A stretch of DNA of 64,000 bases from Neptuniibacter marinus (GTDB lineage: Bacteria > Pseudomonadota > Gammaproteobacteria > Pseudomonadales > Balneatricaceae), in the NCBI RefSeq assembly GCF_001597725.1, contig NZ_LUTR01000005.1, positions 1 through 64,000 of the forward strand, in the 5' to 3' direction. The notes below the pieces were generated by a model, which was given only the letters and a program-made list of their open reading frames with translations, was not told the DNA's origin and searched no databases. A program made the translations under genes and the position numbers. Positions 57,506 through 63,517 of the stretch are shown one piece after another (within the stretch, counting starts at the first letter, position 1; each line of letters starts with the position of its first letter).

Positions 57506-57634
57506 GTGGCTAGATATCCTGTGCTTGAATCTGTACTTTGTCATTTGGGGTTAAGAGAAGAATGGGGCGATTATTTTATCGGCAGCGCTTTTGGACTGCT
57601 TGATAACGATGGCGTTCGTGAGTCGAGTAGATAG
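57506..57634 (+). CDS. Possible 42-residue protein
   Basis: GTG start with AGGG four bases before; encodes a short frame containing LGLREEWGDYFIGSAFGLL. It could be the end of a decayed gene. No family known to me. Confidence 0.25.
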   Translation: MARYPVLESVLCHLGLREEWGDYFIGSAFGLLDNDGVRESSR

Positions 57635-57842
57635 GTTATTTTCAATACAGGGCTACCAAGTATCACCACTGATTAATTCTAACTTGCCACACAATACTGT
57701 CATGAGCATCCTGAAGGGGAATCTGAAATTGTCTGATCTCAACCTTTCAGATGAACAGCTTGATGTTGTATCTCTGGCAGTAAACGGAATCCTTACCAAT
57801 CAAGAAGCATTCAAAAGGCTTGGGATCACTTTAAACAAATAG
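57591..57842 (+). CDS. Small hypothetical protein, possible antitoxin-like
   Basis: The frame gives up to 83 residues; a later ATG at 57702 would give 46 (MSILKGNLKLSDLNLSDEQL and on to LGITLNK). The segment DEQLDVVSLAVNGILTNQEA loosely recalls VbhA-type antitoxins, but the match is by eye and weak. It lies between the hydrolase and the CoiA-like gene. The bases from 57843 to 57987 show nothing else. Confidence 0.35.
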   Translation: MDCLITMAFVSRVDRLFSIQGYQVSPLINSNLPHNTVMSILKGNLKLSDLNLSDEQLDVVSLAVNGILTNQEAFKRLGITLNK

Positions 57843-57987: not shown

Positions 57988-58782
57988 TTGAGCAAAGTAC
58001 CATTCGCACTGGAATTAGATACTCAAAAGTATGTTGACGTTCACGACGTAAAACGTGGCCTCAAATGTAACTGTATCTGCCCATCATGCAAAACACCTCT
58101 CTCAGCCAAGCAAGGTGATGAGAATGCATGGCATTTTGCTCATGCGACCCGAAGCACATCTGACAAAACAGTTACGAATTGCGAATACTCTTTTTACGTT
58201 TCAGTAACTCAAATGGCGAAACAGTTGTTTATGGACAGGGGAAGTTTGTCGCTGTCGCTCCCTGCATACAACTACAGAGTTCAAAGCAGTACTTCAAACT
58301 CGTTTTATACCTCTACTAGAGAAGTCCTGATTACCGAGGCCTCAAGCATAAGCCTTAATATTCAGGGAATAGAGACAAAGCTTTCAAGACACGCAGCTGA
58401 TGTTCTTGGCAAAGTACGGGGTTTCCCATTTATCATCATTTTCACCCATCCCGAGAAACGCTTCGAAATCGATATAGAATTGCTGGATGGCGAAAGAGCG
58501 GGAATTATTGGTATCGACCTTACTGATAGTGTATCCATCTTTCATAATCAGAAAGGTGCTTCCATCACGTCGTTCAAAGAGGCCTTGTCAGCCTATTTGT
58601 TTGATGAAATAGAGCATATCAAGTGGCTCTATCATCCAAGAGAAAGTTCGGTTATCGAAAAAGCGGCACAGCATTTAGAAAAAGAGTCATCTATAGATAA
58701 GAGCTCCCGTCTGGACCCTGCTAAAGAGATGGACTTCATAGATAGAGCACTGGCAGGCTTCCACCTAAACCGAGGTAAATAA
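57988..58782 (+). CDS. CoiA-like zinc-finger protein of unknown function
   Basis: TTG start with AAGGA eight bases before it. The 264-residue protein starts with a CoiA-like zinc module: CICPSCKTPLSAKQGDENAW, then HFAH. In competence protein CoiA this precedes a nuclease domain. Here the middle has FEIDIELLDGERAGIIGIDL, which could be a PD-(D/E)xK-like core, but this is not certain. The next gene starts 3 bases after the stop, so the two form an operon. It may be a DNA-processing or defence protein. Confidence 0.6.
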   Translation: MSKVPFALELDTQKYVDVHDVKRGLKCNCICPSCKTPLSAKQGDENAWHFAHATRSTSDKTVTNCEYSFYVSVTQMAKQLFMDRGSLSLSLPAYNYRVQSSTSNSFYTSTREVLITEASSISLNIQGIETKLSRHAADVLGKVRGFPFIIIFTHPEKRFEIDIELLDGERAGIIGIDLTDSVSIFHNQKGASITSFKEALSAYLFDEIEHIKWLYHPRESSVIEKAAQHLEKESSIDKSSRLDPAKEMDFIDRALAGFHLNRGK

Positions 58783-58785
58783 CTC

Positions 58786-60048
58786 ATGCCGAACATACCT
58801 CAAGTAGAAAAAAATAAACGAGAAGAACCTTCGAAATTTAAGATCAAATTCCCAAAAAACAATTTCGGATATCTTCCTCCTGCAGAAGACTTTTTCGAGC
58901 TTTTGAATCTCAAAGTCTCACCATTTCATCTGCTATCTGAAATAGAAGCAGAAACAGAGGAGAAGCTGCCTGTAGGTCGAAATCAGCTATACAACATTGT
59001 TAAAGATGGCATCAGTCAAAAAATTAAAAACAAACTACTGTCATACCTCAATCGTGTTGCACCTGAACTCACCCTCAATTTCAAATTCAGTATTGGCTTA
59101 TTCAAGAAACTATACGAATCCAACAAACTTGGTGCCAATGCGGGAGCTTGGCTATCAATGCTAACGGGGTTTAATCGTTCAAGATCATCCGATCAGCTTG
59201 ATTTGCTTGTTCAGTTTATAGAGGAGAGATCGCATGCAGAGCTTGGTCTGTGTAAGCAGGCCAACCGTGTTAGGAAACAAGACTTAACTGGCCACGAACA
59301 AGCACTATTCATTTCAGGCTTTCTGTCTGATCACTCTTTGGTCCCCAAAGAGGTTTTGAATGACTACTGCGATCAAGTAGTAAGAAATGACTCAGGCCTC
59401 GAATTCGATCAGCTGGCAGTGATAAAGTTTCTACTTTTCACCTGGTCAGACTTCTACCTCTCAGCCATAGCTTCATACGAAATTGGCACACGAAACTACA
59501 TGCAACGCTTGGGGTTGGTTGTAGAGTGGGATGCTGATACAAGTATCCAAAAATCCATGCCCGACCTTTTTAATGAAGATACAAAGAGAAATTCAGCATT
59601 TAACAATTTGCTAGAACTGACTAAAAAACTTCATAGCAAAGGTGAGGAGCTCAGTTGGCGTGAATTCTCCAGAATGATTCCGATCAACGGTCAAACTGAA
59701 GAAAAGCAGAATAATTACGATTCGACTTCATTTGCCGATAAACAATACAAGACCCTTAGGCGCTGGCGATCAGGAAGAGATCTACCTTCAAGGAAGCTTC
59801 TTTCTCAATTCATTACGTCTTTTTGTGAGAGTAAAACCCTTGAGCATCAGCTCATAATGGAGCGCTTTACGATAGCTCTCGCTATTGATTCCTGGATTAG
59901 AAAATGGGACGAGTGGTTGGAATCGAATGGTATAGCTGCTGATGTGAGGCATGAATTAATCCAATCAGTTCTAAATCACTACGATGCACATCTGGCTCAG
60001 ATGAAAGAGAACCATGCAGAAATTCTTGAAGATGATAAGGCCGCATAG
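58786..60048 (+). CDS. Unknown protein paired with the CoiA-like gene
   Basis: The 420-residue, mostly helical protein has no family I know. Two segments look like DNA-binding helices: GRNQLYNIVKDGISQKIKNK near 65-85, and KTLRRWRSGRDLPSRKLLSQF near 325-345, which has the style of a lambda-repressor-type recognition region. No membrane segment or signal. It starts 3 bases after the CoiA-like gene and ends before two opposite-strand micro-genes. The pair precedes the type I operon. Confidence 0.6.
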   Translation: MPNIPQVEKNKREEPSKFKIKFPKNNFGYLPPAEDFFELLNLKVSPFHLLSEIEAETEEKLPVGRNQLYNIVKDGISQKIKNKLLSYLNRVAPELTLNFKFSIGLFKKLYESNKLGANAGAWLSMLTGFNRSRSSDQLDLLVQFIEERSHAELGLCKQANRVRKQDLTGHEQALFISGFLSDHSLVPKEVLNDYCDQVVRNDSGLEFDQLAVIKFLLFTWSDFYLSAIASYEIGTRNYMQRLGLVVEWDADTSIQKSMPDLFNEDTKRNSAFNNLLELTKKLHSKGEELSWREFSRMIPINGQTEEKQNNYDSTSFADKQYKTLRRWRSGRDLPSRKLLSQFITSFCESKTLEHQLIMERFTIALAIDSWIRKWDEWLESNGIAADVRHELIQSVLNHYDAHLAQMKENHAEILEDDKAA

Positions 60049-60070: not shown

Positions 60071-60211
60071 TTAGTTATCTTCTTCATCATCAGAGTCATG
60101 GGTTCTTTCGTACCAGTCCTCTGGGCGCTCATCTTCACCACGGCTTTGCCAATAAGCATCATGTTCAGGGTCTAACTGGCATGAACGGTTGTCATCATCA
60201 TGTTGAGCCAT
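60071..60211 (-). CDS. 46-residue acidic micro-protein
   Basis: Found by reading the minus strand: a perfect AAAGGAGGT ribosome site lies eight bases before the ATG. The product is acidic (MAQHDDDNRSCQLDPEHDAY start, DSDDEEDN end) with WQSRGEDERPEDWYERTH. The ribosome site lies within the end of the gene before it, so the two are coupled. No known family. Confidence 0.65.
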   Translation of the reverse strand: MAQHDDDNRSCQLDPEHDAYWQSRGEDERPEDWYERTHDSDDEEDN

Positions 60212-60213
60212 TC

Positions 60214-60351
60214 TCATTTACCTCCTTTCTTGGCGATAGTTCGGGTAGCGCGAGCAGTAAAGCTATCTGAACTCACTTGGCCGCCAGACTTTTTTGCTTC
60301 CGCGCTATGGATACGTTTTACAGCTTTTGGGGTCATCTTTGTTGTCGTCAT
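60214..60351 (-). CDS. 45-residue basic micro-protein (SMP-like)
   Basis: The ATG has AGGAG eight bases upstream. The product (MTPKAVKRIHSAEAKKSGGQ, then SSDSFTARATRTIAKK) resembles short seed-maturation-type proteins with RIQSAxAKxxGGxVxxxSFAARAQSAA found in bacteria and on mobile elements. It is followed by the acidic micro-protein, so one basic and one acidic small protein are made from one mRNA. Confidence 0.68.
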   Translation of the reverse strand: MTTTKMTPKAVKRIHSAEAKKSGGQVSSDSFTARATRTIAKKGGK

Positions 60352-60608: not shown

Positions 60609-62285
60609 GTGTCTGATTTCAAAAAGATTGAACAGTTAGAAAAGCGCCTGTGGTCTGCGGCAGATAGTTTACGAGCGAACACAGGGCTTACCGCACAAGA
60701 GTATTCCCGCCCGATTCTGGGGCTGATTTTCCTGCGTTATGCAGAGTTTCGTTTCGAAAATGCTAAAGCAAAGCTGGAAGGTCAATCCAGCCGCCGCCGT
60801 GGCGGTGATATCAAGAGCCGTATTCAGGCAGAAGGGGCGATGTATGTGCCAGAGGAGGCGCTGTACTCCAATCTTTTGAAACTGCCGGAAAGCACCAATA
60901 TCGGCCTGAATATCAATGAGGCAATGAAGGCTCTGGAAGCGGATAATGAAGCTATTAAAGATGCGCTGCCTAAATCCTATACCCGCTTTGATAACACCAT
61001 TCTGAAAGACCTTCTGAAGAATTTTGCCGCCATCGATTTTGGCATGGGGTCAGATGTATTCGGGCGTATCTATGAGTACTTCCTGAATGAGTTTGCCAAA
61101 ACTGAAGGTCAGGGCGGTGGTGAGTTCTTCACGCCGTCTACACTGGTACGTTTGATCACAGAGATTATCGAGCCTTACCACGGCAAAGTGTTCGACCCTG
61201 CTTGCGGTTCGGGTGGTATGTTTGTGAGCTGCGCGAACTTTGTTGAAGAGCACTCTTTATCTCAAGGGCAGTCATCTCAGGAACAGAGAGACGCTTCAGA
61301 TCACCTTTCTATCTTCGGTCAGGAGAAAACTGGGGATACGGTTCGCCTGAGTAAGATGAACCTGGCAGTCCATGGTCTGCAGGGCGATATTCGTGAAGGT
61401 AACTCCTATTACGAAGATATTCATAACTGCGCGGGTAATTTCGACTTTGTAATGGCGAACCCGCCATTTAATGTTAACGAGATCCAGAAAGATCGTTTAG
61501 TTGATGACAAAGCACGCTTCCCATTTGGTATGCCACGTACCGATAACGGTAACTATCTATGGATTCAGATGTTCTATGCGGCACTGAACGAAAAGGGCCG
61601 TGCAGGTTTTGTTATGGCGAATTCTGCCAGTGATGCCCGTGCGTCTGAGCAGGATATCCGTCAGCAACTGATCGAAGCCAAAGCTGTGGATGTGATGATC
61701 GCGGTATCCAGCAACTTTTTCTATACCGTAACCCTGCCATGCTCACTCTGGTTCTTTGATAAATCTAAGAAAGGCACGGATCGGGAAGATAAAGTCCTGT
61801 TTATCGATGCTCGCCATATCTTCCGTCAGGTCACCCGTGCGGTACGCGATTACACCAGCGAGCAGCTGAACTTTATTGCTAATATCGTGCGCCTTTATCG
61901 TGGGGAAGCAGTCGATAATACCTACCTTGAACAGCATCCAGATGACGTACAGGGAAGTACTAATGTCGCGGGAGACAGGACGTCGGGAGCGACCGAAGCC
62001 AATAAGGGCGATTGGGCTGTCGATAAGCACTTCACCGAGGGTCAGTATCAAGATATTGCTGGGCTATGTAAGGTCGCAACGATTGAAGAGATCAAAGAAC
62101 AAGGCTGGTCGCTGAACCCTGGGCGCTATGTGGGTGTAGCTGCCGGTGAAGAAGAGAATGATGAAGATTTTGTGGTTAAGTTGGAGACGCTTCAGGAGGA
62201 GCTTTTGGTATTGAATTCAGAGGCTCATGAGCTGGAGCAAGCCATAGCTAACAATGTGGTGAAAGCATTAGGAACTATGTCGTGA
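60609..62285 (+). CDS. hsdM: Type I restriction-modification methyltransferase (HsdM)
   Basis: The 558-residue N6-adenine methylase has the HsdM N-terminal domain ([20 protein letters not shown]), AdoMet motif [10 protein letters not shown] near 197 and catalytic NPPF near 284. Start is GTG with AAGGA upstream. Overlaps hsdS by 4 bases. Its codon use is richer in CTG and GC than the flanking core genes, a sign of transfer. It modifies the sequence chosen by HsdS. The hsdR gene is not in the window and may lie further right. Confidence 0.92.
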
Positions 62286-63517
62286 GCCTAGAAGGTGAGG
62301 TTTTTACATTGGATGAACTTGGCTATTTAGGTCGAGGAAAATCCAAACATAGACCCCGTAATGACCCCCAACTGTATGGGGGGGGGTACCCATTTGTACA
62401 AACTGGTGATGTAAAGGCAGCAAACCTTTACTTGAAGAACTACTCGGGAACATATAATGATTTTGGTTTAGCTCAGAGCAAGCTTTGGAAAAAAGGCACT
62501 CTTGTTATTACGATTGCAGCCAATATCGCAGAAACAGCAGTATTAGGACAGGATTCATGCTTCCCTGATAGCGTCGTTGGCTTTGAGCCAAATGAAGATA
62601 AAGTTAACTCTTTTTTTATCAAATACTACATCGATCACATTAAGCGTGAAATGCAGAGTATTTCTCAAGGAACCACTCAAGACAACTTGAGTTTAGAAAA
62701 ACTAAGAACTTTCAAGCTTAAAGTCCCTTGTAAGCAAAGTGTTGACAAAATCACTGAGGTTTTACTTAGTTACGACAACCTAATCGAAAATAACAACCGT
62801 CGTATCGCTATTCTGGAAGAGATGGCTCAATCCCTCTACCGTGAGTGGTTTGTTAAATTTCGTTTCCCAGGGCATGACCAGTGCCAGATGGTTGATTCAC
62901 CACTTGGGATGATTCCTGAGGAATGGGAGATACGAAAGCTCGAAGACGTTGCAGATGTTAACCCTGAATCCATTAAGCCTAAATCAGCACCTGAGCAAAT
63001 TCATTATATTGATATTAAAAGCGTATCCACTGGAAAAATAGACGAAGTACGCACCCTAAGCTTCTCTGAAGCGCCAAGCAGAGCAAGAAGAATAGTTAGG
63101 GATCAGGATGTTATTTGGGCTACAGTAAGACCGAACCGTAGGCAGTTTTCATATATCTGCAAGCCTATTGAAAATACGATAGCCTCAACAGGATTTGCAG
63201 TTCTTAGAGCAAAGAACATTCCTGCAAGCTATCTTTATTTCTTCACTACGACTGATAGTTTTACGTCATATCTAGTAAATCATGCTTCTGGGGCTGCATA
63301 CCCAGCAGTAAACACATCAGATTTTAATAACGCTGATATTCTGTTGCCAAGTGATGGCATTCTTGCCCAGTTTGATAATGCGGTTAAAGAAACATTGATC
63401 TTAAGTGAAAATCTTAAGCGCAAAAACGAAAATTTAAGAAAACAACGCGACCTTCTGCTCCCCAAGCTAATCAGCGGCCAGATCGATCTGAGCCAGGCAG
63501 AGCAAGCTTTAGCATGA
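62282..63517 (+). CDS. hsdS: Type I restriction specificity subunit (HsdS)
   Basis: The 411-residue protein has two target-recognition domains, each followed by a conserved helix: [15 protein letters not shown] after the first (near 190) and [19 protein letters not shown] at the end. The start is GTG at 62282 inside the end of hsdM. The recognition domains are more AT-rich than hsdM, as usual for these swapped parts. Its stop overlaps the next ATG. Confidence 0.9.

Follow-up and report, generated by a model that had tools for sequence, protein, structure and literature searches.

The window, i.e. the whole stretch of 64,000 nucleotides of Neptuniibacter marinus DNA that was analysed (contig NZ_LUTR01000005.1), contains two open reading frames separated by only 3 bases, which encode a CoiA-like zinc-finger protein and a second protein, here called p2 (Table 1). 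An initial annotation had proposed these two genes as a candidate two-gene defence system, and both open reading frames, their spacing and the length of the second protein (420 residues) were confirmed. The same annotation placed the pair directly before a live type I restriction operon, with no genes listed between p2 and hsdM. The operon is indeed there, with hsdM, hsdS and an intact hsdR following, but a gap of 560 bp holding two small minus-strand genes lies in between, so that the restriction operon does not simply begin with p2. Similarly, what had been described as a restriction hotspot came down to one restriction system near the pair (with an MNT/HEPN-type pair inside it) and not several, the rest of the window having been surveyed by eye. 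The CoiA-like gene and p2 are likely co-transcribed in the window; no operator-like repeat stands out near them, and promoter and terminator counts are at or below shuffled expectation.

Table 1. Features at the locus, in window coordinates unless marked as contig positions
Feature	Position	Strand	Basis
CoiA-like zinc-finger protein, 264 aa, TTG start	57988..58782	+	ORF list and Pfam CoiA_N
Zinc-finger region of the CoiA-like protein, residues 27-65	58066..58182	+	alignment
p2, 420 aa, ATG start, probable C-terminal Cro/C1-like HTH	58786..60048	+	ORF list and profile comparison
Probable p2 HTH region, residues 275-350, conserved W-R-x-G...P motif	59608..59835	+	profile comparison
Acidic microgene type C, 48 aa, Shine-Dalgarno AAGGAGG	60071..60217	-	4-nt overlap with the basic microgene
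Basic microgene type A, 45 aa, Shine-Dalgarno AGGAG	60214..60351	-	convergent with p2
hsdM, type I restriction-modification operon (neighbouring system)	60609..62285	+	ORF list and PADLOC
hsdS, same type I operon as hsdM	62282..63517	+	ORF list and PADLOC
hsdR, intact, past the window end	contig 65217-68408		

Several other features surround these genes. The MNT/HEPN-type toxin-antitoxin pair (contig 64176-65202) lies within the type I operon, downstream of hsdS and upstream of hsdR; its first gene corresponds to PADLOC PDC-M05A, the Pfam matches are to nucleotidyltransferase and HEPN, and a DUF6933 gene stands just before the pair, also between hsdS and hsdR. Approximately 6 kb beyond hsdR, beside pgsA/uvrC-like genes (by eye), there is a cluster of tRNA-Leu, -Cys and -Gly genes, which is a possible integration hotspot. 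Upstream of the CoiA-like gene, an 83-aa ORF (57591-57842) finds no match in Pfam at E 1, and none of the fetched loci holds a clear relative of it; the DNA of an MFS gene upstream of the pair is common to two of ten other genomes of the same genus.

The CoiA-like protein and its pairing with p2

The zinc finger of the CoiA-like protein had been recognised correctly: the Pfam CoiA_N model matches at E 1.1e-8 (34.9 bits, above the cut-off of 26.3), and C27, C29, C31, C34, H52 and C65, i.e. the four cysteines of CxCxCPxC, one histidine of HFxH and a further cysteine, are invariant in all 12 aligned CoiA-like sequences. The possible nuclease core suggested at the same time stands only in part. 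An AlphaFold model from seven sequences (pLDDT 64, pTM 0.60) has its best structural alignments with PD-(D/E)XK nucleases, at Z values of 5.0 or less that may mean only a common arrangement; among the best-aligned chains are SSO0001, Hjc, EcoRV, VRR_NUC, McrBC and AddAB, all of which share the PD-(D/E)XK fold. In Foldseek searches with the same model, no PDB entry reached E 0.001, whereas two unnamed viral proteins did, and a phage ‘competence protein’ followed at E 0.009. A nuclease-like fold is plausible on the strength of this modelling.

Canonical PD-(D/E)XK catalysis, on the other hand, is unlikely. The position of the catalytic Glu is occupied by Ile in the window protein, whereas seven of the 18 aligned sequences carry Glu there, on a strand that reads like IExxVTH. 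The first catalytic Asp (Asp 138) is kept in the window protein and in nine, this one included, of the 11 sequences that lack the Glu; ten of these 11 have no acid at the Glu position, and L025 has Asp there but no first Asp. Since the grouping by Glu was drawn from the motif itself, it is a description and not an independent test. The protein would probably bind nucleic acid without canonical PD-(D/E)XK cleavage. With the CoiA family, which is listed in the PD-(D/E)XK clan (PMC1913061), it has in common the N-terminal CxCxCPxC...HFxH...C zinc finger and a weakly REase-like predicted fold; it differs in being short (the C-terminal Cys-rich region of several relatives is missing), in having Ile in place of the strand Glu of seven aligned members and in that no link to competence was seen.

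Among 72,556 plasmid records, 2776 contain relatives of the CoiA-like protein and 1833 of these 2776 are predicted to be conjugative; the best-ranked plasmid relative is 34.8% identical over 88% of the query. Near this relative, an annotated ATP-binding protein and a UvrD-like helicase stand in a Gabija-like layout (L003 2619-5392). None of 50,697 phage records matched at E 1e-5. Pattern scans for close relatives yielded none in genome contigs or viral contigs, and six viral loci were found with the CoiA alignment. Within the same order, a CoiA-like gene is present at E 1e-8 in eight of 145 genomes, the window's included. PADLOC 2.0.0 yielded nothing significant, its one match being DruB, aligned across the zinc finger at E 0.035. 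A clear defence gene lies within approximately 8 kb in three of seven CoiA-like loci of the same order, which is not an unbiased rate because the ten neighbouring proteins scanned were picked by eye (from six of the seven loci, G506 being left out); at a fourth locus only a UvrD-like helicase is nearby. Individual observations from CoiA-like loci include a Cas12c-like effector of 1258 aa in G443 (L053 1663-5439, minus strand, PADLOC E 5e-134), approximately 2.7 kb from the CoiA-like gene, an IetA-IetS defence pair in G383 (L048 7979-12877), divergent from the CoiA-like gene and approximately 0.5 kb away, and a CoiA-like gene in G459 (L054 7395-9811) that is seemingly split by a TnpB-type gene (by eye), with matches to the CoiA profile on both sides.

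The proposal that the CoiA-like protein and p2 constitute a two-gene defence system, i.e. a nuclease plus a DNA-binding partner, can draw on (i) the 3-base gap, which suggests coupled translation, (ii) the weakly nuclease-like fold, (iii) the three of seven CoiA-like loci near a clear defence gene, from proteins selected at six loci, and (iv) one of 21 validated E. coli defence systems, which includes a CoiA domain according to the accessible part of its description (PMC9519451) and is likened here by description, not by sequence. It does not agree with the distribution of the two genes. Both profiles occur together in three of 83 fetched loci (many of them overlapping), all of which are the window's own DNA, and a narrower set of 61 loci gave the same outcome. 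Within the stretches fetched, p2 is absent from 14 other bacterial CoiA-like loci (seven of the same order, the G536 locus and six plasmid stretches, two of which start at the record start and so have a short left flank), and no CoiA gene stands beside p2 in the seven other p2 loci, i.e. the pair is found in one of eight. A genome-wide test in four other p2-bearing genomes (with G763, G773 and Photobacterium outside it) showed no CoiA homologue at E 0.1 in three. The sole exception, G536, carries its CoiA-like gene on a different contig from p2, after an apparent P2 gpD gene (by eye). A hidden pairing in G536, where both genes are near contig ends, was considered and rejected: a 111-bp repeat, 97% identical and equally oriented, stands at the start of both contigs and probably represents one insertion-sequence end; adjacency of the two genes is thus not shown.

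As no second locus with the pair was found among those fetched, the two genes are rejected as a conserved two-gene system, and by the co-occurrence check that the initial annotation itself proposed, the pairing fails. Given also that Ile occupies the place of the catalytic Glu, a defence system made up of these two genes as nuclease and DNA-binding partner is highly improbable. The CoiA-like gene is better described as a separate cargo gene, of a family that is common on plasmids, than as an obligate partner of p2, and experiments guided by the adjacency seen in a single genome would have been aimed at the wrong pair.

The p2 family and the microgenes facing it

As initially reported, the second protein has no significant family match, here in Pfam, NCBIfam, PHROGs, PADLOC or PDB sequences, and its single-sequence structure model (pLDDT 36) has no meaningful fold. 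The first p2 search gave six other genomes at E ≤ 0.1, of which three were kept after reading and used to build a profile; the weak first hits G007, G594 and G402 are absent from the profile-search lists, and their stretches contain no p2 profile match at E 0.01. p2 was found in five of 390 genomes of the order (its own included), in one of 369 genomes of the class (its own only) and in four of 48 genomes of one family, counts that are not to be added because the three samples overlap. It is present on one plasmid among 72,556 records, found with two homologues as queries; p2 itself as query had no plasmid match, and phage records yielded only two matches near E 1. The eight loci available for comparison are those of the window, G466, G637, G536, G763, G773 (where p2 is broken by a stop), G750 and the Photobacterium plasmid NZ_CP099737. 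The homologues are approximately 19-24% identical to the window protein, and the W-R-x-G...P motif and other positions are invariant across the family. Neither p2 nor the microgenes described below appeared in the titles and abstracts of the literature searched, which is not proof of absence; p2 seemingly represents a rare, undescribed family without a family model.

Two DNA-binding-like segments had been noticed in p2, of which the C-terminal one is supported by profile comparison and the N-terminal one was not (score 10.1, P 0.049). Specifically, comparison of the p2 profile with an XRE set of eight helix-turn-helix sequences, one taken from G637 and seven from the genome that holds the window, gave a score of 23.0 over columns 267-349, with an insertion between the helices, while the best of 200 column shuffles reached 14.3 and the reversed profile 10.8. 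The best helix-turn-helix family in Pfam was HTH_26, at E 0.16 in one of six members and below the cut-off, and the WYL domain matched none of the six. On the basis of these alignments, p2 probably carries a Cro/C1-like helix-turn-helix near its C-terminus.

Directly 3′ of p2, and convergent with it, a basic microgene is found in all eight distinct loci. It is of type A in the window, G466 and G750 and of type B in G637, G763, G773, G536 and Photobacterium, being shortened in G763 and broken in its frame in G773. All 25 fetched stretches with p2, which cover the eight loci, contain a type A or B profile match, but these matches are not independent since the profiles were built from six of the p2 loci. 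An acidic microgene with the motif YWQSRGE(E/D)ERP(E/D)DW accompanies the basic one in five of the eight loci (the window, G637, G763, G773 and G536), and none was seen in the other three; the two genes overlap by 4 nt in the window and by 1 nt in G637 and G763. Independent support comes from the new profile matches elsewhere (see below) and from tblastn: in searches against the other loci, the window's type A microprotein reached E 7.6e-5 in G750 and its acidic microprotein E 1.7e-8 to 6e-11, and Pfam gave no match above cut-off for the two overlapping microgenes. Four families of the order, and Photobacterium as well, have p2 together with a microgene.

Shine-Dalgarno-like purine runs precede the ATG in twelve microgenes examined at p2 loci. 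Between G637 and G536, the type B genes differ by 10 synonymous and 3 nonsynonymous codons (3/0/12 differences at the three codon positions) and the p2 genes by 88 and 82 (55/37/127); between G637 and G763, the acidic genes differ by 14 and 10 (6/4/20). The codon-position pattern of the changes indicates that the microgenes are protein-coding, and that of type B points to purifying selection.

The microgenes are not confined to p2 loci. The type A profile matched four of 174 genomes, namely the window's genome and G466 (beside p2 in both), G407, where the match lies in a restriction/WYL region, and G409 (weak). The type B profile matched five of 184, namely G536 (beside p2), G491 and G447, where the matches adjoin a different large protein (p2b, see below), and G506 and G537, which have no such neighbour. 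Neither p2 nor p2b is near the matches in G409 (weak), G537, G506 and G407 within the fetched stretches. On plasmids, a type A relative was found in one Salinimonas record and a weak type B relative in one record from Sphingomonas.

Defence operons beside p2

The defence neighbourhood that had been proposed is supported beyond the window as well: seven of the eight p2 loci adjoin recognised defence genes, a raw count in which four of the eight loci come from one genus and are not independent. The defence genes are of Gabija (three loci), type I restriction (two, the window included), Hma-like (one) and Vsr/Dcm/type II (one) kinds. In G763, p2 directly follows gajA-gajB (GajA E 0, GajB E 3e-267) at a distance of 106 bp, and G773 has the same layout in DNA that is 94-96% identical; in G536, p2 is preceded by DNA that matches the 3′-terminal part of gajB, a remnant that begins near the 111-bp contig-end repeat. 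In G637, the gene 76 bp upstream of p2 is the hsdR of a type I system in which PrrC is also present. On the Photobacterium plasmid it is 125 bp from a Vsr gene, with Dcm and a type II endonuclease within 6.5 kb, and in G466 it stands beside an SH3-like gene (by eye) followed by HmaC/HmaB-like genes approximately 1 kb away. The G750 copy lies in a region with DUF932/YqaJ-type genes (by eye), where no defence family was detected in the one large p2 neighbour scanned; a 1271-aa protein near this copy (L024 12663-16478, minus strand) has no PADLOC match.

Within one genus, the p2 block follows hsdR in one genome (G637) and gajB in three (G763, G773 and G536). Between G637 and the other three, homology begins 18 bp upstream of the p2 start codon and continues past the microgenes, and blastn of the DNA directly upstream of p2 found no match between the type I and Gabija versions. 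The position of this junction means that two unrelated defence operons have been joined to one and the same block. A separate match of 357 bp (80%) common to G637 and G763 lies approximately 8 kb upstream of p2.

A junction this sharp between different defence operons is also what could be expected if p2 and its microgenes did no more than mark the edge of a mobile hotspot, or anchor recombination there, and moved together with the defence cargo. The integrase-like gene (by eye) near p2 at the G536 contig end, together with the 111-bp repeat there, the DUF932/YqaJ-type genes near the G750 copy and the breakage of both p2 and the basic microgene in G773 fit such an explanation. It is nevertheless quite improbable, given that the microgenes change like protein genes, that p2 and a microgene are found together across four families of the order as well as Photobacterium despite p2 identities of approximately 20-24%, and that no recombinase family matches p2.

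The conserved unit consists of p2 and the facing microgene(s), and the CoiA-like gene is not part of it. Our preferred interpretation of this unit, which is a tentative one held at somewhat less than even confidence, is that p2 and the microproteins form a DNA-binding module which is portable, lies at the edge of defence operons and has a control or accessory function. In such a module, p2 would bind DNA and would control, or act with, the adjoining defence operon; the p2 block would travel and become joined to different operons (Gabija, type I restriction); and the tiny basic and acidic proteins would be partners of p2 that tune its DNA binding or its level, in a role comparable to that of small ligands or antitoxins. 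If this is true, a rare family re-attaching to different defence operons would be a new control module with its own microproteins, and partners of 30-50 aa are the sort of genes missed by annotation. Several observations argue against the control module: a regulator would usually sit upstream or divergent, whereas p2 is downstream of a same-strand gene in five of the eight loci; no Pfam helix-turn-helix family reaches its cut-off; no operator-like repeat stands out near the CoiA-like gene and p2; both p2 and its basic microgene are broken in G773; and no defence genes were seen at the p2b loci or in the one large neighbour scanned in G750.

Known systems provide partial parallels. BrxR (PMC9122601) and RptR (PMC12255303) are DNA-binding proteins tied to defence systems, and the accessible parts of both papers describe the control of defence islands as still little known. 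With the BrxR/WYL regulators, as far as covered by the accessible part of PMC9122601, p2 has in common that a probable helix-turn-helix protein stands beside several kinds of defence system (four for p2); unlike them, it has no WYL match, is mostly downstream of a same-strand gene and comes with facing microgenes. The likeness to RptR is a small-genome-neighbourhood tie to type I restriction, but RptR, in the accessible part of PMC12255303, has 79 aa and one domain and represses an island promoter, whereas p2 has 420 aa and is a predicted binder, the two being compared by description. As for Gabija (GajA-GajB), two related genomes have p2 as the gene following gajB and a third has it behind a gajB remnant, but p2 matches no PADLOC model and also occurs without Gabija.

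The main rival to the control module is that p2 and the microproteins are a toxin-antitoxin-like or abortive-infection module of their own, independent of the adjoining operon, and that their co-location merely reflects the clustering of genes in defence islands. The overlapping acidic and basic microgenes resemble a coupled pair, and the p2 block stays intact while the defence operon upstream differs. We still regard this as rather unlikely, as no acidic partner was seen in three of the eight p2 loci, no toxin family matches p2 or the microproteins, and p2 faces the microgenes and shares no common operon with them.

A second family beside the same microgenes

The large proteins adjoining microgenes of the same types in G491, in G447 and on the Salinimonas plasmid (in tandem, not convergent) were grouped as p2b. 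The G491 and G447 members are 25% and 21% identical to the Salinimonas member, with 404 of the 743 aa of the G447 protein aligned. Profile alignment of p2b with p2 gave a score of 25.9 over 259 columns and placed W-R-x-G on W-R-x-G, as compared with 11.6 for the best of 150 column shuffles and 3.8 for the reversed profile. Single-sequence tests of p2b against p2 were negative, and the p2b profile scored 11.1 against the XRE set, where shuffles reached up to 9.2; for these reasons, the remote kinship of p2b to p2 suggested by the profiles is provisional. No defence genes were seen near the three p2b loci (by eye or from annotation), and p2b with a microgene in such surroundings favours the toxin-antitoxin-like alternative.

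A broader interpretation would unite p2, p2b and the basic and acidic microproteins in an undescribed superfamily of portable switch modules, in each of which a large helical DNA-binding protein would be controlled by a tiny partner encoded beside it. Bacteria would attach such modules to anti-phage systems that can replace one another, namely Gabija, Hma and type I or type II restriction; in the window, the module would be attached to the CoiA-like zinc-finger protein. Taken as one joint claim, this is unlikely. Two of the three p2b members also show weak TPR hints, none of them above the Pfam cut-off.
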